64,000 nt of DNA from Pseudomonas putida S13.1.2 (GTDB lineage: Bacteria; Pseudomonadota; Gammaproteobacteria; Pseudomonadales; Pseudomonadaceae): the NCBI RefSeq assembly GCF_000498395.2, contig NZ_CP010979.1, positions 620,001 through 684,000 of the forward strand. The letters run 5' to 3'. The notes under the pieces were generated by a model. The model had not been told where the DNA came from and made no database searches. It saw only the letters and a list, made by a program, of their open reading frames with translations. Each line of letters begins with the position of its first letter. Position 1 is the stretch's first letter. This document shows positions 28,275 to 44,733 of the stretch, one piece after another. Position numbers and translations under genes: made by a program.

Positions 28275-28364
28275 GGGAAATTGGCAGAGTGGTTGAATGC
28301 ACCGGTCTTGAAAACCGGCGAACGTGAGAGCGTTCCCAGGGTTCGAATCCCTGGTTTCCCGCCA
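28275..28364 (+). tRNA. tRNA-Ser(UGA), complete, carried by the element
   Basis: 90 nt including an encoded CCA. The acceptor GGGAAAT pairs with GTTTCCC (last pair T-G); D arm GCA/TGC; anticodon arm CCGGT-CTTGAAA-ACCGG with anticodon TGA; long variable arm AACG/CGTT; T arm CAGGG-TTCGAAT-CCCTG. The long variable arm marks tRNA-Ser. Its acceptor, variable and T stems differ completely from the split host tRNA-Ser(UGA), so it is not a local duplicate. It lies 41 bases inside the element's left end, downstream of the host promoter at 28107 and before a terminator. Confidence 0.97.
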
Positions 28365-28674: not shown

Positions 28675-30414
28675 TCAGTTCTGCCCTTGAAGCAGCGCAA
28701 GATCCTCAGACTCAAACCGAATATCTACGCCTGCAATCTTGCCCTCCCGCCGAAGCATGCTGGCCAACCGCGAGTGAGGCTCCTGGTCAACGATCGACCG
28801 GCAGGCCTGCAGAAACGAATCAGGCGCGTGTCCATGATTCCTTTCAGGTGCTCCAGTATCCTTGACGAGATCGAACCCTTTTTGGATGAGCAGTTGAAGG
28901 TCTGAGCCGGATGCGGCCCTGATTTCCTTCTCGAACTCCCGGGGGGTGACAGACCTCAAGAACTGCTTCTCGCTGATACCCCAGTCGTTCCCCTTCATCA
29001 GATCCTGGAGAAGTCCGAGTACGGTAAAGCGATCCAAGGAGACCGATCGCGCACTCTCTATTTCGTCCTGGATCAGGGGGTGAAGTTGATCAAAGGAGTG
29101 ATCGTTGAAGTGAAGCCAATCCTCCGTGACGCCATCCGGATGATCTGCTTGAAATTGGGCCCTCCATTTTTCAATGAAAGCGAGGCCAAGTTGCTGGTCG
29201 CCTGTCAACTGATCGATCGAAGGTATCAGATTAGAAAGCCTCTTCATGTCCAGCAGTCCCGCGCTGGGGAGCATGTGCTCCAGTTCGATGATCAGATCCT
29301 GCTCTGAAAGCTGAGGGTGCCAGGAGAGATGCTCCTCAAAGGTGATAGCCTTGTTGCGGGCCTCAAGCCGGTCACTTTTACGTAAATAATCGGTCACGAA
29401 ATGCTGGATATTCGTGCTGTCCACGATCCCAGAGTCGAGGTAAGCCAGGATCATGGCCTCCAGTTCGTCGGTGCTGCTGATGCCTACCCGTGTCATCAAG
29501 CGGTGCCAACGCTCTTGGTTTTGCTGTTGCTTGCTGAGCGGTGTGTTTTGCTTTCCCCTAAGGGAGACGAGCGTGGATGTCCGGTGCGCCTGATAGTCGA
29601 GGACGAATTCCTTACTCGGGGCGTCCTCTACTGCTTCATAGTGAATCCCGCCGAGTAAGCTTATTGATGGCAGTACGCGCTTGAGCAGCAGCGGAGCAAT
29701 CGCAGGATCCTGGCCCAGCAATTGATTGGCCACTTTGATGATTTTTCGGATGACCCGGATGTTGGTGATCCGTAATGGTAGAAGAGCGGCCCTCATTGGC
29801 TCAGGCCACGAGCAGGACGTCAGCTTGTGGGCGATGTCGAAAGCTTCGGTGGGGGACGTCTCTAGCTTGATCTCCTGATCGACCACCTTCTCACGAATTT
29901 GACCCCAAATTTCCTGATCCTTCAGCTTGTCGCTGTTCAGTATCAAGAGGATGCGGCAGTCGTGCTTCTGAACACATTCATCGATGAATCCGAGAATCTC
30001 ATCGATGGTTAATTTGGCGTGTTTGCGCTCGATGTCATCGATGACGATGAAGCGGCCCTTCAGCATGTAGGGCACCGCCAAGAGAGAAAGCTCGTCCAGT
30101 ACCGAGAAGCTTGAATTGACGCTTTTGAGCACCTTTTTTACCGCTGTGACTCCAGTTTTGACTGAATCAAGGTAGCTTTTGTCGAGCTTGTCCGTGAGTC
30201 CTTCGGCGATCTTTAGCTTCAATTCAGCGATCGTGCTCACGCCGAAGAGGGACGCTGATACGGCTTCTTTCGCCTGTTTGTCCCCGGTTGCCTCGCGAAC
30301 CTGCTTCCAGAGCTCCGTTTTCCCGGTGCCCCACTTTCCGGAAAGGGCAATCACCTTGTTCTCTTTTTCATCGATGAGGCCCAGGAGGGCGTGCTTGCAG
30401 TGCGCGAGGGTCAT
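28675..30414 (-). CDS. KAP-family P-loop NTPase
   Basis: 579 residues from the ATG at 30414 (MTLAHCKHALLGLIDEKENK), which has AAGGA five bases ahead; the frame is open further upstream, but that part shows no family similarity I recognise. Walker A is GKWGTGKTE near residues 25-33 and Walker B RFIVIDDIER, the extended DD/E form of KAP NTPases (STAND-related). I see no membrane insertion, unlike many KAP proteins. The last ~350 residues are helical and unassigned. KAP NTPases are frequent in phage-defence islands; its specific job here is inferred only. Confidence 0.8.
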   Translation of the reverse strand: MTLAHCKHALLGLIDEKENKVIALSGKWGTGKTELWKQVREATGDKQAKEAVSASLFGVSTIAELKLKIAEGLTDKLDKSYLDSVKTGVTAVKKVLKSVNSSFSVLDELSLLAVPYMLKGRFIVIDDIERKHAKLTIDEILGFIDECVQKHDCRILLILNSDKLKDQEIWGQIREKVVDQEIKLETSPTEAFDIAHKLTSCSWPEPMRAALLPLRITNIRVIRKIIKVANQLLGQDPAIAPLLLKRVLPSISLLGGIHYEAVEDAPSKEFVLDYQAHRTSTLVSLRGKQNTPLSKQQQNQERWHRLMTRVGISSTDELEAMILAYLDSGIVDSTNIQHFVTDYLRKSDRLEARNKAITFEEHLSWHPQLSEQDLIIELEHMLPSAGLLDMKRLSNLIPSIDQLTGDQQLGLAFIEKWRAQFQADHPDGVTEDWLHFNDHSFDQLHPLIQDEIESARSVSLDRFTVLGLLQDLMKGNDWGISEKQFLRSVTPREFEKEIRAASGSDLQLLIQKGFDLVKDTGAPERNHGHAPDSFLQACRSIVDQEPHSRLASMLRREGKIAGVDIRFESEDLALLQGQN

Positions 30415-30768
30415 GGAAGTCCTTGTCTGTAGCTCATGCAATAGCTCAATGCTGGAGCTGTAGGTAAAGACCGCATGTATAAGGCAGTGCGGTTGAAGGC
30501 GCAATGGGGCGGTAGAGCCAGGGACTCTCCACAGGCGGGATGTTACAGCCGCCTTCTGGCCCACGACTTCTTGGTCAACCTCATCATTGCGATATGTCGT
30601 CGACTTCAAGCAGGCGCTTTAGATCAAGGGTTGCAGCCAATCTCCCCATCTTGCCATCATCCCTGACGATGCAGCGACGGTCCTGCGTGCGTTCTCCGGC
30701 AGTCTTTAGGTCGGGCAGCAAGCGTCTCTGATCAGACCTTGATTGCGAATTGGATAAGGAAAACAGGT
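30415..30768. other. Gap upstream of the KAP NTPase gene
   Basis: 354 bases between the divergent KAP gene and the interrupted gene at 30769. It must contain the KAP promoter. I see no convincing gene or RNA in it. Confidence 0.4.
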
Positions 30769-35659: not shown

Positions 35660-36481
35660 ATGCTGCTTTTTGACCTTCTCAAACTGTGGGAACCTGCCTT
35701 CACTCCCGGTCGTACTAAGGTTCACTTGGCCCGATACAACGGCGAAGAACGCCCCCTCGACGTGTTCCTGGAAGGCCGCTTTGATCAATGGCAATCATGG
35801 CAATCCCAACGGAATTTCGAGAAGGAGTATGTCGTTTCACTTATCCAGGCTGGGCGCCCTACTCGCTGGCTTTTTGCAGGCCTGTTCCGCAGGAGGGGGC
35901 GTCTCGATTACACCGCGCCGCGAAATCACCACATCTACGACCTGGAGCGTATCGAAGGTGCCGAAGAATGGGTCGGTCGCCTCTATCTCAAGAGCACGTA
36001 CAAGCAGCGCAACTCATACCCACTAGGAACCACCCTGGTGAATGACCTTGTCGTCTCGGAGCTACTTTCCAAACGCCTCACCATAGGTGATTTCCCAGGC
36101 TTCAAGTCAGTCAACTTGACCAAGGAGCATCTGGATATCGTCATACGTCAGAACATTCCAACCTGGCGCGCAGCATTGTCGAATGTTAAGGGCGTCTATC
36201 TGATCACAGACAGTGAGACCGGCAAACTGTATGTCGGCAAAGCCGACGGCGAAAGCGGCATTTGGGGGCGCTGGTGCACATACGCGGCGACCGCACACGG
36301 TGGCAATGTTGCCCTGAAAAAGGAGTTTGGCATCGACGCCCTCCCCGGGCGGCAGCAGCACCTTAGATTCTCTATTCTGGAGATCGCTGATATCCATGCC
36401 ATGCCAGGAGAGATTGATGCGCGAGAAAGCCACTGGAAGCAGATCCTGCTAAGCCGAGAATTTGGCTACAACCTGAACTGA
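35660..36481 (+). CDS. GIY-YIG nuclease-family protein
   Basis: 273 residues. The C-terminal third carries the GIY-YIG fold: GVYLITDSETGKLYVGKA (the GVY...YVG form of the motif), then GIWGRWCTYAATAHGGN with the conserved arginine, and a late glutamate in GEIDARESHWKQILLSRE. The N-terminal ~170 residues are unassigned. This arrangement is known from uncharacterised proteins often near restriction or defence genes. The start ATG has no good ribosome site. A small gene follows 103 bases later. Confidence 0.8.
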   Translation: MLLFDLLKLWEPAFTPGRTKVHLARYNGEERPLDVFLEGRFDQWQSWQSQRNFEKEYVVSLIQAGRPTRWLFAGLFRRRGRLDYTAPRNHHIYDLERIEGAEEWVGRLYLKSTYKQRNSYPLGTTLVNDLVVSELLSKRLTIGDFPGFKSVNLTKEHLDIVIRQNIPTWRAALSNVKGVYLITDSETGKLYVGKADGESGIWGRWCTYAATAHGGNVALKKEFGIDALPGRQQHLRFSILEIADIHAMPGEIDARESHWKQILLSREFGYNLN

Positions 36482-36584
36482 GAGCACTGCAGGCAGCGTT
36501 TCCTGGATTGGTCTCCGGCACTTACGCATGCACATGCGTCATGAGCGAGTGGCTCATGGCGACCAACCACTAGGAGTGTCACCC

Positions 36585-36803
36585 ATGGTCATCTGCAAAG
36601 GTCAATTGCGCGGCGCATTCAAGGGCTTCAAGAATACGGAAACTGTGTTTGAGTTCTACGGTGGTAGGAAGTGGAAACAAGCTGTCTATCAGTACGAATA
36701 TTTCTACGCCTACATGCCTCAAGCCAAGGTCGTTCAGGAGGGTGGTGCCTACATGCTCAAGGTACAAGGCATGAGCAGCAGCGTTGCTGTCAGGCCAGCC
36801 TGA
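36585..36803 (+). CDS. Small unknown protein
   Basis: 72 residues from MVICKGQLRGAFKGFKNTET, with AGGAGTGTCACCC before the ATG; the frame is open further upstream but without a ribosome site. Probably a small beta-rich protein (TVFEFYGGRKWKQAVYQYEY). No family recognised; plant-like or phage-like single-domain proteins of this size are common in islands. Confidence 0.6.
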   Translation: MVICKGQLRGAFKGFKNTETVFEFYGGRKWKQAVYQYEYFYAYMPQAKVVQEGGAYMLKVQGMSSSVAVRPA

Positions 36804-36899
36804 AACACCTTCATTTGCATTTCGGGGCGTCATGTTGAGCGCCCCTGAAGCCAGCTTCGCGGTAGCATATTCCGCCGCATGATGGACTGCGCACGGACA

Positions 36900-37396
36900 C
36901 TAGGGAGTAAGCAGCTCCGTCTCCTCAAGCTCTACGCCCAGCCCGAAGCGCGCACCGATTGTTGCCGCCACTTGGCGATGTACGGTAGTGGATTGATGAA
37001 AATGGATTTCTGTTTGGTAAGCGGGCCATTGACCTGCCTGACGAATCAGAAACACCAGCTCGGCTTTCACGGTTTCGATATCAAGACAATCCCCTCAACC
37101 GCATCGAGTTGGCACCAGATGTCCATCGTCGCAGCAGTAAAATGTCGACGCCAAGCATAGCCGTGGTATCCGTTTTTGCCGTTGGCGGCCCATCCGATCC
37201 GTAGGCGATTGCTCATCGATTGCTTGGTGATCCCGACGTATACAGGGTGTGAATGCCCCTCCACGCTAATCACATAAAGCTTCGGAAATCGAGATGTTGC
37301 CAGCCCGGAAAACCTCGTCGTGTTCTCTGGGCATTTGATGGCAAAGGTTGAGGCATCAAAGGTAAGCGCGTAACGTCCTACGTAGGTCATTTCCAT
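36900..37396 (-). pseudogene. GIY-YIG protein gene with a frameshift
   Basis: From the ATG at 37396 the frame encodes KLYVISVEGHSHPVYVGITK, a GIY-YIG core of the VYVG type with SNRLRIGW after it, and stops at 37067. Around 37085 the neighbouring minus frame takes over smoothly with LDIETVKAELVFLIRQAGQW and PAYQTEIHFHQSTTVHRQVA, reaching TAG at 36900. EAE-type acid residue and HFHQS are expected continuations of this family. One inserted or lost base near 37083-37095 explains it. The intact product would be about 164 residues. Confidence 0.75.
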
Positions 37397-37524
37397 AGAC
37401 GCTCCTCATTAAAGCGGCTGCTTGCAAAACGGCAATGTTGCGGGAGCCAATGAAATGTACCACCGCCCACCAGTTGTCTGCACAGCAGCACCAGTTATCT
37501 CCGCTGTAGGCTGGCGGCACTTAC

Positions 37525-38418
37525 TTACGCACGCATGACCTTGTTCCAATCAATCTCATGGCCAGCAGCTTCCAGTTCCCGACCCAGAGCTTGCTTCCAG
37601 CCATCTTTATCCATCGACTCCCAAACCACACCAGCAAAGTCACTCGGAATTTCCACAGAGCCTCGCTTGAGAGCGCAGACTTTGGCACGGCCCAGGCGAC
37701 CCAGGAAATAGCCCAACTCCAGCAGCACATTTTGGCGAGCGCGGGGTTCTGGTGCTCCCCCCTTAACGCAACCTTCATCGTCCGGGGTGAGCAGCACTAC
37801 TGCAAACCCGACATCACCGTGTGCCTCGACCTTTTCGATAACTGTTCGGCCCTGATTCGCTTGCTCATGCAAAATGATGGACTGGAAACCGAGTCGTTCG
37901 AGAAAGCGAGCTACGGTTTCGCGGGCGCCTTCGTCATGGCCATGCACGATGAACACCTTGCGGGACGGCTCGTGAGCGTTCTTCTGCGCGCCATTCGCGG
38001 TATGGGTTAGCGGGGCATGCTCATGGTCAGACAGATCTTCCCTCAGCGTCCGCTGCGCCTCGCCCAACAGAGAGATGGACTGGGCAATATTGTCCGTCGT
38101 CCCTTGGACATAGTGGTGCCTGCGGGGATAATTATCGGTATAAAAGCCTGGGGAGAAGTGCAGCTGAGCTGCAGAAGAAAAACGGTAGTAGGTAGCAGTG
38201 TTTAGGCCGAAACACCTATCCAAAGTATCTTCAATTGACGTCGACAATGCTACGAGCCTTGGTGAGTCACCGTCATCGTTGAGTAGGGATACGTCAAAGT
38301 CTTGGAGATCATTGATACGCTCTTGCAAGCGCTCAATTCCTCTCTCCATCAGTGCGGGAGTCAGTTGGAGCTTTGGGGCGACATTGTTGGCGCCAGGCGA
38401 GGATTTATTGCGTGCCAT
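37525..38418 (-). CDS. TIR-like nucleotide-binding protein (CAP12/PycTIR-type)
   Basis: 297 residues from MARNKSSPGANNVAPKLQLT. The C-terminal ~130 residues match the TIR-like domain of predicted nucleotide-binding proteins: KVFIVHGHDEGARETVARFL, LHEQANQGRTVIEKVE with the likely catalytic glutamate, FAVVLLTPDDEG and RARQNVLLELGYFLGRLG. Domains of this type act as NAD-consuming effectors in CBASS and Pycsar phage defence. The N-terminal ~150 residues are unassigned. No cyclase gene is nearby. It follows the HTH/ImmA-IrrE gene on the same strand with about 120 bases between. Confidence 0.82.
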   Translation of the reverse strand: MARNKSSPGANNVAPKLQLTPALMERGIERLQERINDLQDFDVSLLNDDGDSPRLVALSTSIEDTLDRCFGLNTATYYRFSSAAQLHFSPGFYTDNYPRRHHYVQGTTDNIAQSISLLGEAQRTLREDLSDHEHAPLTHTANGAQKNAHEPSRKVFIVHGHDEGARETVARFLERLGFQSIILHEQANQGRTVIEKVEAHGDVGFAVVLLTPDDEGCVKGGAPEPRARQNVLLELGYFLGRLGRAKVCALKRGSVEIPSDFAGVVWESMDKDGWKQALGRELEAAGHEIDWNKVMRA

Positions 38419-38538
38419 CAAACAATTCCTGTGCGTGAATAGGTGAGCAAAAAGAGTGAACGCCATCTGGGGATTTTCCCCGCGCTCATACCCTTAACCA
38501 CTGCGGGAGGGCTTGCGGTTGTGGGCTGAGACTTCGGG

Positions 38539-39639
38539 CTATTTCACTAAGGCCAATGGCGCTGCTGGTACCTTCAGCATGAAGCGCTCCACGATCAGGG
38601 CATCTGTGAGCCCAGAGTTCTTGAGGATTGTTCTCCAGCTCGCATGATCAAGCAGATCCACCGCCCGTTGTACCAGTGTTGGCGCTTCTATCTCGATCTG
38701 GTCGTCAAGCTCTTCCCGCTTGGTGAAACCGTTGCGGCTGAGGTAGGTGAAGCCTGACCGAGCTTGATCCTGAGTGATCAGATTGAGGGTCTGCGCACGA
38801 TAGATGATCGCCTTGAAACTGACTTTCCACCGCAGCTTGAGAGCCCCTAGTGCCGACCAGTTGAGGTACTGGCCGCGCATTGATGGAAACTCACCACCGA
38901 AGCTCGCCCGTGGCATGAGCAGCGCGCTAGCAAATTGATTTGCCTGAGCCTCGGTTGTCCGGCAACCCGTTTCAATACCCTGATGCATCACCAGATGGCC
39001 AAGCTCATGGGCTATGTCGAATCGATGCCGGCAAGGATTTTCCTTGGCGGTATTGCGCACGATCAGAGGGCGCTTGTTGAACAATGAAAACGCATCGATA
39101 CGATCATCTGCATCAGCAAGACTCACCACCAAGACACCCGCTTTTTCCGCCAGCCGGGTAACGTTGGCAATCGGGCCGATGCCGATCGACAGCTCTCGCC
39201 GAAAACCCTCAGCAGCTCTTTCAATTACGTCATCACTGGTAAGCGGCAATTCGAAAGCACTGAATCCCACTGGAGGGAAGTCCACCTCCTCTTCAAGCTC
39301 GTTGACCAGTAACTCGAAGAGCTCCACCTGGGATGCAATGCTCTTCTTGATTGTCTGGGTCGACGATCGCAAGCTGCGAAAATGGCACTGTTCCAGTTCT
39401 ACAGAACCTCGGCGCGGACTCGACAGAAAATCTTCCGTCACTCCCAGGGCTTTGGTCAGCACCTGGATCTGAGCGGGATTCGGAATGGAATTGATTTCTA
39501 GTTTATGAGCGTACTGTCGGCTCACCCCGAGCAATTCGCCCAACTCAGCAAGCGACAAGCCAGCAGCGCACCGAGCCAGTCTCAGCTTGTCAGGTGAAAA
39601 CTCAGCTTCAAAAGCAAGCTGTTGTGTTCTGTCATCCAT
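38539..39639 (-). CDS. HTH (XRE) regulator with ImmA/IrrE metallopeptidase domain
   Basis: 366 residues. The N-terminal HTH (LRLARCAAGLSLAELGELLG, VSRQYAHKLEINSIPNP) is followed by a linker and an M78 peptidase domain with the zinc motif HELGH (in RFDIAHELGHLVMHQG) and the downstream EAQANQFASALLMP acid site. Such proteins cleave repressors or toxin partners in mobile elements. Its start overlaps the stop of the preceding unknown gene by eight bases, so the two are coupled. The target is unknown. Confidence 0.9.
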   Translation of the reverse strand: MDDRTQQLAFEAEFSPDKLRLARCAAGLSLAELGELLGVSRQYAHKLEINSIPNPAQIQVLTKALGVTEDFLSSPRRGSVELEQCHFRSLRSSTQTIKKSIASQVELFELLVNELEEEVDFPPVGFSAFELPLTSDDVIERAAEGFRRELSIGIGPIANVTRLAEKAGVLVVSLADADDRIDAFSLFNKRPLIVRNTAKENPCRHRFDIAHELGHLVMHQGIETGCRTTEAQANQFASALLMPRASFGGEFPSMRGQYLNWSALGALKLRWKVSFKAIIYRAQTLNLITQDQARSGFTYLSRNGFTKREELDDQIEIEAPTLVQRAVDLLDHASWRTILKNSGLTDALIVERFMLKVPAAPLALVK

Positions 39640-40249
39640 CTACGGGTTCATCATCGTCAGTGGTCTTTTTATCAATGTCTTTACGCTTGCGCTGCACTTT
39701 CGCCTCAGGCACGTCAACCGGAGCATGCTGCTCAGTCGCTCTGACCGATAGCATCGAGTACTCGTCATGCTTCCACAGGCAAATCACGTTGTGATTCACG
39801 TCAAAGCCGACGATCGCCACCTCAACCTTCGGGAATTCCGGGTCGTTGTTGCTGGAGACGTAGACGCGCCAGGTGCAAATTTCCGGCGACTTTTCAAATA
39901 GTGAAAGCTGATGCTGCTCAAGGGGGTTCGGCTTGATCCGGTAAGCCTTTTTGATGTCGAGTGGGTTATCCGTGACGATCTGCAGCAGTACATTGTTCAA
40001 TGAGACAGTGAAATCCAGCGTCGCGTTACGCAACTGCAGCCAGGGCATCGACTTGTCGGCTGCCAGCACCTGGCAAAGCCCTTGCTGCCTGCCGAACAGC
40101 ATCGTGCCTCGGGTGTAATTCGTGTCATAAGGGCTGCTGGAGTCTTCCAGAGCGCTGTATGCCACATCAGCGACTTCTTGGCAGAAGCGAGCTACATACT
40201 CAGGCAGAAGCCTGGGCTCGAAATGACTCGGATGTTGTGTCACATGCAT
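39632..40249 (-). CDS. Unknown protein coupled to the HTH/ImmA-IrrE gene
   Basis: 205 residues from MHVTQHPSHFEPRLLPEYVA. A mixed alpha/beta protein with a very charged tail (AKVQRKRKDIDKKTTDDDEP). No motif recognised. Because its stop overlaps the start of the HTH/peptidase gene by eight bases, it is probably a partner: a regulated effector, a substrate or a sensor. Confidence 0.7.
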   Translation of the reverse strand: MHVTQHPSHFEPRLLPEYVARFCQEVADVAYSALEDSSSPYDTNYTRGTMLFGRQQGLCQVLAADKSMPWLQLRNATLDFTVSLNNVLLQIVTDNPLDIKKAYRIKPNPLEQHQLSLFEKSPEICTWRVYVSSNNDPEFPKVEVAIVGFDVNHNVICLWKHDEYSMLSVRATEQHAPVDVPEAKVQRKRKDIDKKTTDDDEPVDG

Positions 40250-40352
40250 CAGGCCGCCTCTCCAAAAAGTCTGCAAATCGAGAAAAGTGTCAACTCGAAT
40301 TCTATGCAGATTTAAGGATATGTCAACCGAGCAGCAAGCAGAAGGACTTCAT

Positions 40353-41971: not shown

Positions 41972-42618
41972 TTCGGCTGGTGGCATTTTGATGGCAGTCG
42001 CTGCTGGAAGGAAATGTAGGAGGCACTAATGGGCAAAGGGCAGACTCAGGATTCCACCAGCATAGTTTTGGTGCGCACCGCCAAGTGAGCGGGTGGAAGA
42101 GCAATTTCGAACTATGAAGGGAGACCATGATCAAGTAGCTGGCCACGTTGTTATGCGGCCTCACAATACTAATTTTTTGATAGGATAGTGAAGTGAGGAC
42201 ATTGGCAAGCTCGGCCCAGTGAAATTACCGTAGTCTCTTATGTTCAATCGAAAACGTCAAAAGAAGAACATTGGATGGTTTATATCCATCCATTTGGATT
42301 TTTTAATTAAATAGGAACACTCGCTTGAGTGGTTGTGCTGAATGGTTGTTCGCGCTTTTAGATGGCGGGGCGTGTAAGCGATGCTGCTACAGGGTTCTGG
42401 ACGAATAAGTTGAAGCTTTCGCTCGGGGGAATCTGAGAGCAAAAGAAAGCCCGCCGAGGCGGGCAACAAGGAGCTTCTATCAAACGCAGAGGTGATCCAC
42501 GCTACCCTGTCGGGTGTGAAAAAATGGTGAAGCGAAGGCGGTCAGTGCATCGCATGCATCAGTGCACGTTAACGGTAGCAACGATCTAGAACTGCTCGGC
42601 AGAAAGGACTGAACAAGC
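41972..42618. other. Gap with a conserved minus-strand terminator module
   Basis: 647 bases without a convincing gene. The part 42160-42320 is AT-rich. At 42441-42538 there is a module with a terminator hairpin that recurs at 62348-62448. Confidence 0.45.
42441..42538 (-). repeat. Recurrent hairpin module, copy 1
   Basis: On the plus strand AAAAGAAAGCCCGCC...GGCGGGC, then GGAGCTTCTATCA, then at fixed distance GTGAAAAAATGGTGAA. On the minus strand the hairpin ends in TTTCTTTT, so it can terminate minus-strand transcripts. Copy 2 is at 62348. Confidence 0.6.
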
Positions 42619-43317
42619 TCAGGCTTCCTCTTGTGTGCGATTTGCTTTTGCCCGGTTGACCTTCCAAGGCAACGCTGGCTGAGTCCGTACTTTCTTGTGC
42701 TTACCCTTGGCAAACATATACGTTTGTAGCTCCTGGAAATGACGGCTTCGGCCAGACAACTCGTAGGTGATGAGAAACACCATCAATGGCTTGTCCGCCT
42801 TCTGCCATTGTGTGCCAATACGCTCCAGCGTTAGCGCGATATCATCAGTCCTGCTGTAACCTATGAAAATCTGGAATACCGCGTTTTCGGCGCGTTCGAG
42901 CAGCTTGGAAATCTCGTTGATATCAGTGTGCGCGCGCTTCCACTCCCACTCGACGTACGAAAGCGTGTCGCCCTCGGGGTAGCGCAGCACGGCATCGGTG
43001 CGTCCACCTTGCTCGAACAGTGCCCTAGCCCCGAGAAGCGTAGCGCACTGGCGTACCACCAAGCCCAAGTGGATTGTCCAGTCCGCCCGGCCCGCAAGAT
43101 CATTAGCCTCGGTTACCGGAAAATCTCGGTACCATAGGCAGTTAAACAGCGTTATGAAATCCCGTTCGACTCTCTTCACAAGTGTCCTTGTCGATATGAT
43201 TGGCCTGAGAGATGTAGCGGCGGGAGCTCGTGAAAGTTGAGTGCGTGTCAGAATGTTTGTGAACGTCCTGTCAGCTGGCTTCGCATTTGACCTTGGCGGA
43301 AAGGGAGGGCAGGGCAT
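42619..43317 (-). CDS. PD-(D/E)XK-like unknown protein
   Basis: Up to 232 residues from the ATG at 43317; a later start is possible because the first ~50 residues are low in structure. GGRTDAVLRYPEGDTLSYVE then WEWKRA gives D...ExEWK, the pattern of the PD-(D/E)XK nuclease core, after a helix with CATLLGARALF. The end is basic (KGKHKKVRTQPALPWKVNRA). The catalytic assignment is mine from the motif. It lies 52 bases after the PIN-like gene on the same strand. Confidence 0.6.
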   Translation of the reverse strand: MPCPPFPPRSNAKPADRTFTNILTRTQLSRAPAATSLRPIISTRTLVKRVERDFITLFNCLWYRDFPVTEANDLAGRADWTIHLGLVVRQCATLLGARALFEQGGRTDAVLRYPEGDTLSYVEWEWKRAHTDINEISKLLERAENAVFQIFIGYSRTDDIALTLERIGTQWQKADKPLMVFLITYELSGRSRHFQELQTYMFAKGKHKKVRTQPALPWKVNRAKANRTQEEA

Positions 43318-43369
43318 GGGCCTGCCTTCCGAGAGTTATGCGGCCTACTGCTCGATCAGGCATTGACGC

Positions 43370-44206
43370 TCATATCATTGGGTTCTTGAGAGATAGCATG
43401 AAGCGAAGCTCCTGATCAGCCAGCCTCACTCGCTCGTCGTAGGAGAATAGGCCATCAAAAAACGACCCTACTACGACATAGTGCTGGTCGATCACATCGT
43501 TGGTTGCCTTCTCAGGAGTAAGGCTTTCGATACCCCCCTTGATTGCCCATTCCATGGCGTGTCGCACAAGCGCAAGCTGATAGCGCAAAAACAGTGGGTT
43601 GCCTCTCAAAAAGCGTCGGATGCGAGCGGGAGGGTGGCCTTCTTTGATCAGAAGGTCTTGGGCAAAGCGAGTGGCCGCAAAATAGGCCAGTGACAGCCTT
43701 TCGGCATTTGTGCAAGTAGGTTGCTTGAGGTGTTTCAAATTATCAGGGCCCAAATGGTGCTTGACCGCCTGGGTGGTTTCTTGCAAGCGACTGAGATTCT
43801 TCTCGTGATTGAGCTCATCGCGTTTGAGATTTTCCTGCGCGGCGGGTAAGTCCGCTTCGAGCTGCTGGAGTAAAGGCCCATCTGGATCGTTGGAGGCAAG
43901 CTCGGTCGCCAGCGCCCTGTAGTAGCGGGTGTGATCCTTGCAAACCAGGCTCAGCGACCCGTGCTCTAGCTTCTCCATCTCGTGGCGCAGAGCTTCGGAC
44001 AAAGAGATTGCGCCTAGGATTCGTCCAGGCGTTTTGGCCAGCTTAGCCAGCGAGCCCTGTATTGTTTTCTTCCAATGTTCCCCCTTGGCCATCTCAAGGA
44101 AAGCAACGTCCAAAATCACAAATTTGGCTTTTGGGTCTTCTGCGATCACCCGTTCAAGCCCACCTCTCCTGAAGTAATTCTGGTCAAGCGCGTACACGTT
44201 CGCCAT
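43370..44206 (-). CDS. PIN-like domain protein
   Basis: 278 residues. The start VYALDQNYFRRGGLERVIAE, then AKFVILDVAFLEMAKGEHWK, and near the end NDVIDQHYVVVGSFFDGLFS with YDERVR fit the spaced acidic residues of PIN-like RNases (D6, D/E near 33-38, D near 237-250). A central helical insertion of ~100 residues contains a coiled-coil-like run. It starts 500 bases inside the element's right end and is followed by the PD-(D/E)XK-like gene, a probable two-gene unit. Confidence 0.6.
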   Translation of the reverse strand: MANVYALDQNYFRRGGLERVIAEDPKAKFVILDVAFLEMAKGEHWKKTIQGSLAKLAKTPGRILGAISLSEALRHEMEKLEHGSLSLVCKDHTRYYRALATELASNDPDGPLLQQLEADLPAAQENLKRDELNHEKNLSRLQETTQAVKHHLGPDNLKHLKQPTCTNAERLSLAYFAATRFAQDLLIKEGHPPARIRRFLRGNPLFLRYQLALVRHAMEWAIKGGIESLTPEKATNDVIDQHYVVVGSFFDGLFSYDERVRLADQELRFMLSLKNPMI

Positions 44207-44710: not shown

Positions 44711-44733
44711 TTCGAATCTCTACGCTTCCGCCA
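44711..44733 (+). pseudogene. 3' part of the split tRNA-Ser(UGA) gene
   Basis: TTCGAAT (T-loop), CTCTA (3' T-stem), CGCTTCC (3' acceptor strand), G, CCA. CTCTA pairs with TAGAG at 28214-28218 and CGCTTCC with GGAAGCG at 28154-28160. The original tRNA terminator follows at 44739. No 5' part is present here, so it is silent. Confidence 0.92.

Follow-up and report, generated by a model that had tools for sequence, protein, structure and literature searches.

Among described defence systems the nearest comparison for the locus considered here is DS-3, introduced in the DefensePredictor paper as a one-protein anti-phage system whose PIN domain is split between the N- and the C-terminus; DS-3 requires its catalytic residues, has no cognate antitoxin and is known from E. 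coli strains (PMC13092281). PIN proteins of the VapC type (PF01850) cover about 120 positions and lack a long insertion such as that of gene A below, while PIN_8 (PF18476) and PIN_12 (PF16289) are longer PIN families, with 227 and 172 positions respectively, both present in the genus of the strain analyzed here. The window, i.e., the whole stretch of 64,000 nucleotides of Pseudomonas putida S13.1.2 that was analyzed, contains, as the initial annotation described, two adjacent open reading frames on the minus strand, which we read with moderate confidence as a stand-alone split-PIN defence gene (gene A) and an independent PD-(D/E)XK-like cargo gene beside it (gene B). The features on which the discussion draws are as follows.

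42449..42470, minus strand: terminator-like hairpin, downstream of gene B
42619..43179, minus strand: gene B, candidate PD-(D/E)XK-like protein of 186 aa; probable GTG start, placed by the starts of relatives and an AAGGA upstream
43180..43369, minus strand: gap of 190 bp between the stop of gene A and the probable start of gene B
43370..44206, minus strand: gene A, putative PIN-like protein of 278 aa; open reading frame
44711..44733, plus strand: tRNA 3'-end-like sequence, just beyond gene A
35660-40276 of the window: defence-like genes (UzuA-, PDC-S35/TIR-, RmrA- and RmrT-like), 3-7 kb from genes A and B

The two genes are the last ahead of a group starting at 45.4 kb, whose sequences look transporter- and dehydrogenase-like. 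The GC content in 1-kb windows is 0.48-0.55 over 28 to 45 kb and 0.54-0.59 in the flanks, and this shift, together with the gene order, agrees with the earlier placement of the pair at the right end of an element. The sequence at 44711-44733 (TTCGAATC...CCGCCA) occurs just once in the genome when up to 3 mismatches are allowed, and it is not a copy of the tRNA-Ser 3' end (tRNA-Ser, 28275-28364); no duplicated attachment site was found, nor a second tRNA-Ser 3' end within the window, and the 644-aa open reading frame at 28675-30609 had no recombinase match in NCBIfam or the PDB. Because no duplicated attachment site was found, a right boundary of the element at the pair is no more than plausible.

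The PIN-like residues of gene A, namely D8xN10, E38, D240 and [S/T]x[D/E]257, are split by a long helical insertion of approximately 150 residues, the catalytic-type residues falling N- and C-terminal of it. D8, D33, E38, R208, N236 and D240 are invariant in the 15 aligned sequences of the family (15/15), N10 is present in 14, 13 sequences have D at residue 251, and residue 257 is either D (13 sequences) or E (two); the alignment omits additional copies of the P. tremae gene, two near copies of rows already used (L062 and L083) and a truncated sequence (L088). D8, E38 and D240 persist even in the eight of 14 aligned relatives with at most 21% identity to the protein of the window. Five of the six new matches from a phylum-wide search were read later as more distant members, and four of these five retain D8, N10, E38, D240, D251 and D/E257, two of these four lacking D33, one N236 and one R208; E38 and D240 are both absent from the fifth, L170, which matches weakly (E 7.5e-5). 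The structure model predicts helix between E38 and D240 save for one short strand, in keeping with the helical insertion noted initially. The AlphaFold model itself, built from 7 sequences, is poor (pLDDT 64, the first 33 residues unreliable and the N-terminus below 50), and a fold search with it matched no PIN structure (best Z 3.1).

Searches of gene A in Pfam, NCBIfam, PHROGs and PADLOC returned no match below E 0.04. Scanning the 15 sequences singly yielded chance-like matches only, the best in Pfam at E 0.0044 (Skp1, 2/15) and one member reaching E 0.039 in PADLOC. No solved structure was matched by sequence, the family profile found only helical or chance rows among PDB sequences (the sole row below 0.01 being a designed helical bundle), and hmmscan of gene A and 14 relatives gave no match to PF01850. 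Profile-to-profile comparison with HHalign was performed against PIN profiles built from related genomes (PF01850, 30 proteins; PIN_12, 8; PIN_8, 7), with 42 controls consisting of groups of at least four similar open reading frames from the loci compared, antisense frames included and one group antisense to gene A itself. The N-terminal 80 residues of A matched the 30 PF01850 proteins with a probability of 64% (E 6.5e-5), as compared to 6.5% (E 0.0056) for the best of the 42 controls, and the whole alignment with 27% as compared to 1.5% for the best control; D8 and E38, within the D-x-N and E motifs, align onto the D and E of PIN, which belong to the first strand and the second helix of that fold. 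The result was repeated with a 19-row alignment (62% vs. 2.5% for the best control). The C-terminal half alone did not rise above the controls against the PIN profiles with either 15 or 19 rows, D240 and D/E257 both being present in 15/15. PIN_12 gave no match to A above the best control, and PIN_8 did not reach that control in the 15-row alignment and exceeded it marginally in the 19-row one (3.0% vs. 2.5%); the PF01850 profile itself matches PIN_12 at 76% and PIN_8 at 87%. A PIN-like nature of gene A is therefore supported, because of the conserved residues and the comparison of the N-terminal half; the spaced acidic residues reported initially are real, and the C-terminal half alone has no PIN profile match above the controls.

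Gene B had earlier been drawn as 42619-43317, with an ATG at 43317 and 232 aa. Other genomes gave seven matches, of which five start at residues 42-52 of this frame and one at residue 39, the last being a C-terminal piece; moreover, a GTG at 43179, with AAGGA upstream, aligns with the ATG of a B relative of 73% identity. The ATG at 43317 is therefore probably not the start, the first 46 residues being probably non-coding, and B beginning at the GTG would have 186 aa and lie 190 bp from A. E56, D62 and E77-W-E79-W80 are invariant in the ten family sequences (10/10). The initial reading of a D...ExEWK pattern thus holds for D62 and E77-x-E79, but a K follows EWEW in only three of ten sequences, so that EWK is not the site of B; E stands where K is usual, and the protein has E-x-E where PD-(D/E)XK proteins have E-x-K. 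The spacing of E, D and ExE resembles the site of BamHI.

Gene B had no match below E 0.04 in Pfam, NCBIfam, PHROGs and PADLOC, none by sequence among solved structures, and its profile found only helical or chance rows among PDB sequences. Its model, from 11 sequences (pLDDT 71.6, pTM 0.72), consists of helices, two strands of which one begins at D62 and the other ends at E77, and then a helix and more strands. Foldseek placed nitrilases on top, none of the 50 rows listed exceeding a TM of 0.41, and YaeQ, a PD-(D/E)XK variant, at E ~1e-3, below or level with unrelated rows. VIA-align ranked acetyl-CoA carboxylase first (Z 7.2, the tool's own note giving best Z values of 7-8 as usual for models without a clear match), with EcoRV at Z 5.7 over 125 residues spanning residues 7-166 and chains E of RNA polymerases (RPB5) at 5.3-6.2. 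YaeQ and EcoRV are therefore partial, weak fold matches that do not exceed unrelated folds, and the profile search found no sequence similarity of B to either. Because of its residues, the balance of probability favors a PD-(D/E)XK protein, as the initial annotation proposed, and B is probably a nuclease. Fold search, named at the outset as a check for both proteins, gave no PIN match for a model of A that was too poor for the purpose, and for B a predicted fold that is only weakly nuclease-like.

Relatives of A are rare. Within Pseudomonas, A was found in 6/296 genomes and B in 18/298, the genome of the window alone being in both lists; direct searches found B in none of the five other A genomes (0/5) and A in none of the 17 other B genomes (0/17). 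A collection of 72,556 plasmid records gave four matches to A and six to B, with no record common to both, and 50,697 phage records gave no match to either. Among 165 sequences, the window and duplicates included, the profiles of A matched 31 and those of B 58; outside the window itself, both were present in just four loci, all taken from this very place. A match to A was obtained in 7/398 genomes phylum-wide, the window's own included, and in 2/369 class-wide, where the window's own genome again counts and the second match is doubtful; blastn of gene A against 20,395 E. coli records found no match, which says little at such distances. The two-part defence or toxin system suggested by the initial annotation was rejected on the genome-level co-occurrence and the set of 165 sequences: lack of conservation of the pair, fixed beforehand as refuting it, is what was found. 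Among the papers listed for PIN, the PIN superfamily, HEPN, defence islands and Septu, none evidently describes A or B, either of which may still be named in supplements.

The surroundings of the A relatives were examined in 16 loci, to which the A of the window does not belong; ten neighbors in seven of them, chosen by eye, were scanned singly with PADLOC and the other nine loci only in bulk. PtuA and PtuB were matched in L086, GajA and GajB in L063, Drt4 in L071, SIR2 models in L013, and BilC and BilD in L021 at 1.4-3.2 kb from the A relative, so that named defence genes (Septu, Gabija, DRT4, SIR2-like, Bil) stand near A in at least five of the 16 loci compared; the neighbors chosen from L061 and L062 had no PADLOC match. 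The bulk scan (E 1e-5) drew on open reading frames of 100-1000 aa, taking three on each side or the six nearest the center, and its models are redundant, so that the following counts are not counts of proteins: 356 models for 91 frames in the 16 A loci, 57 for 96 frames (of 114 prepared) in 16 B loci, L029, L032 and L076 being left out, and 15 for 91 of 102 prepared frames in 16/17 chromosomal stretches at round-number positions, a control that represents ordinary chromosome and not mobile DNA. These counts serve as a hint only; it also speaks against enrichment that, among the models listed, none matches more than three of the 91 A-side frames, whereas two match four of the 91 in the control. 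The gene context supports a defence role for A alone, and the absence of a constant neighbor is suggestive of single-gene action against phage.

No partner gene is constant across the A loci, with the exception of one cassette common to L070 (6698-9125), L082 (3255-5544) and L083 (3255-5682), composed of a protein with PD...GIEI, a remote A relative and a third protein, RES-like by eye, that overlaps the A relative by 4 bases. The cassettes of L082 and L083 sit between phage-type genes (types assigned by eye); P2-like prophages are reported to contain antiviral hotspots (PMC9122126). Viral contigs yielded three remote relatives of A but no close one. In L086 (2705-5819) a PtuA-PtuB (Septu) operon is followed, after about 80 bp and on the same strand, by the A relative, and in L071 (7151-10287) the A relative comes after a 195-aa open reading frame and lies 21 bp upstream of the Drt4 reverse transcriptase gene, where it might be a DRT4 accessory; it too would overlap its neighbor by 4 bases if the first start codon were used. 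Since such overlaps occur in these cassettes and also between B relatives and their neighbors in L074 and L079, partners of A or B may matter in some loci. Upstream of the A relatives of L063 (4998-5969) and L069 (1016-2185) we noticed by eye RNxxxH (HEPN-like) proteins with several Cys pairs (zinc-ribbon-like). A HEPN partner of A was rejected: RNxxxH-like frames adjoin A relatives in L063, L069 and L023 by eye, that of L063 being unlike the other two by BLASTP, and in the five of 12 plasmid records opened for relatives of the L063 frame, 2.5-kb flanks contained no A-like gene.

Relatives of B are found in different company, often without a tightly coupled neighbor. In L026-L029, B lies beside or within a few genes of recA on a Pseudomonas megaplasmid backbone, shared by contig L017; B as a partner of RecA was rejected, the five sharing one backbone and hence one event. 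Other relatives are located on a Pantoea plasmid, within an ICE-like stretch, and in ten viral contigs. In L031, B has on one side a terminase-like gene (E 1.6e-4, below the Pfam cut-off) and on the other an HNH gene of the opposite strand, an arrangement that L032 resembles by eye, and in L072 and L073 B is followed by the same neighbor as in L074. In L079 (7263-9557) a GTPase-like gene is overlapped 4 bases by the B relative, with a second similar gene next. The spread of B on mobile DNA suggests a part in competition between elements.

Since the pair does not travel together, we regard A and B as probably distinct pieces of cargo and not as one system. Against this independence counts that neither a terminator-like nor a promoter-like site was detected in the gap between them (43180..43369), so that co-transcription is possible; two adjacent genes on the same strand could then be a two-nuclease defence operon, A acting on RNA and B on DNA, with one of them regulating the other or serving as its backup, and 29 bp upstream of the remote A relatives of the prophage-type L070, L082 and L083 there is a different protein whose PD...GIEI is, by eye, reminiscent of PD-(D/E)XK. 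However, the pair was seen nowhere else, 190 bp separate its genes, B relatives occur in settings without A, and no similarity to B was seen in the upstream protein of L070; we consider such an operon very improbable. Somewhat less so, although still unlikely, is that A is the toxin of a VapBC-like toxin-antitoxin pair with a neighbor as antitoxin, for which the PIN-like core and the overlaps of the three cassettes would speak; however, no neighbor is constant across the A loci, the window's A has no close small partner, and at 278 aa it is twice the size of VapC and has no hmmscan match to PF01850.

A, whose model does not confirm the fold, might also be a binding or sensor protein that resides in defence islands and whose nuclease activity was lost or never existed; the retention of D8, E38 and D240 in divergent members (8/14 at 21% identity or less, and four of the five later ones) argues against it, and we find this reading as doubtful as the VapBC-like one. 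Both the poor model without PIN match and the C-terminal half, with no profile match above controls, count against the split-PIN reading itself. For B, an alpha/beta enzyme other than a PD-(D/E)XK nuclease is an appreciable possibility, if the lesser one: nitrilase and acetyl-CoA carboxylase outrank YaeQ and EcoRV, but all fold rows are weak by TM and Z, the Z values lying inside the background stated by the tool, EcoRV aligns over residues 7-166, and the invariant E, D and ExE would fit a BamHI-like site. A broader proposal, to which we give little credence, is that A belongs to an undescribed family of self-contained split-PIN RNases of Proteobacteria that act as an add-on effector beside Septu, Gabija, DRT4 and Bil, and that the PD-(D/E)XK-like pairing of the window and of the prophage cassettes reflects a recurrent RNA-plus-DNA attack; if true, one RNase module would be common to unrelated sensors.

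For the reading that we prefer, a stand-alone split-PIN protein A beside an independent B, we infer the RNase activity, self-inhibition, trigger and target of A as follows. The N-terminal piece would join the C-terminal one to make a metal-dependent RNase, which the helical insertion between the halves would hold inactive until infection; activated A would then cleave tRNA or mRNA, thereby halting either the cell or the phage. B would be a separate mobile gene of PD-(D/E)XK-like DNase type, next in the row by chance, and the non-conserved pair spares effort on a two-part model. None of the libraries scanned (Pfam, NCBIfam, PHROGs, PADLOC) matched the family of A, yet several of its relatives are located near proven defence systems, and A is accordingly a single-gene candidate for anti-phage testing.

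In comparison with known systems, A appears as an unnamed family of a known kind, the split-PIN, anti-phage type. Its layout is split: D8 and E38 belong to the N-terminal end of the protein, D240 and D/E257 to its C-terminal end, and helices lie between. A is like DS-3 in being a single protein with PIN residues divided between the N- and the C-terminus, no evident antitoxin and a defence setting, a likeness of design (PMC13092281); such a protein would widen the split-PIN class beyond DS-3.
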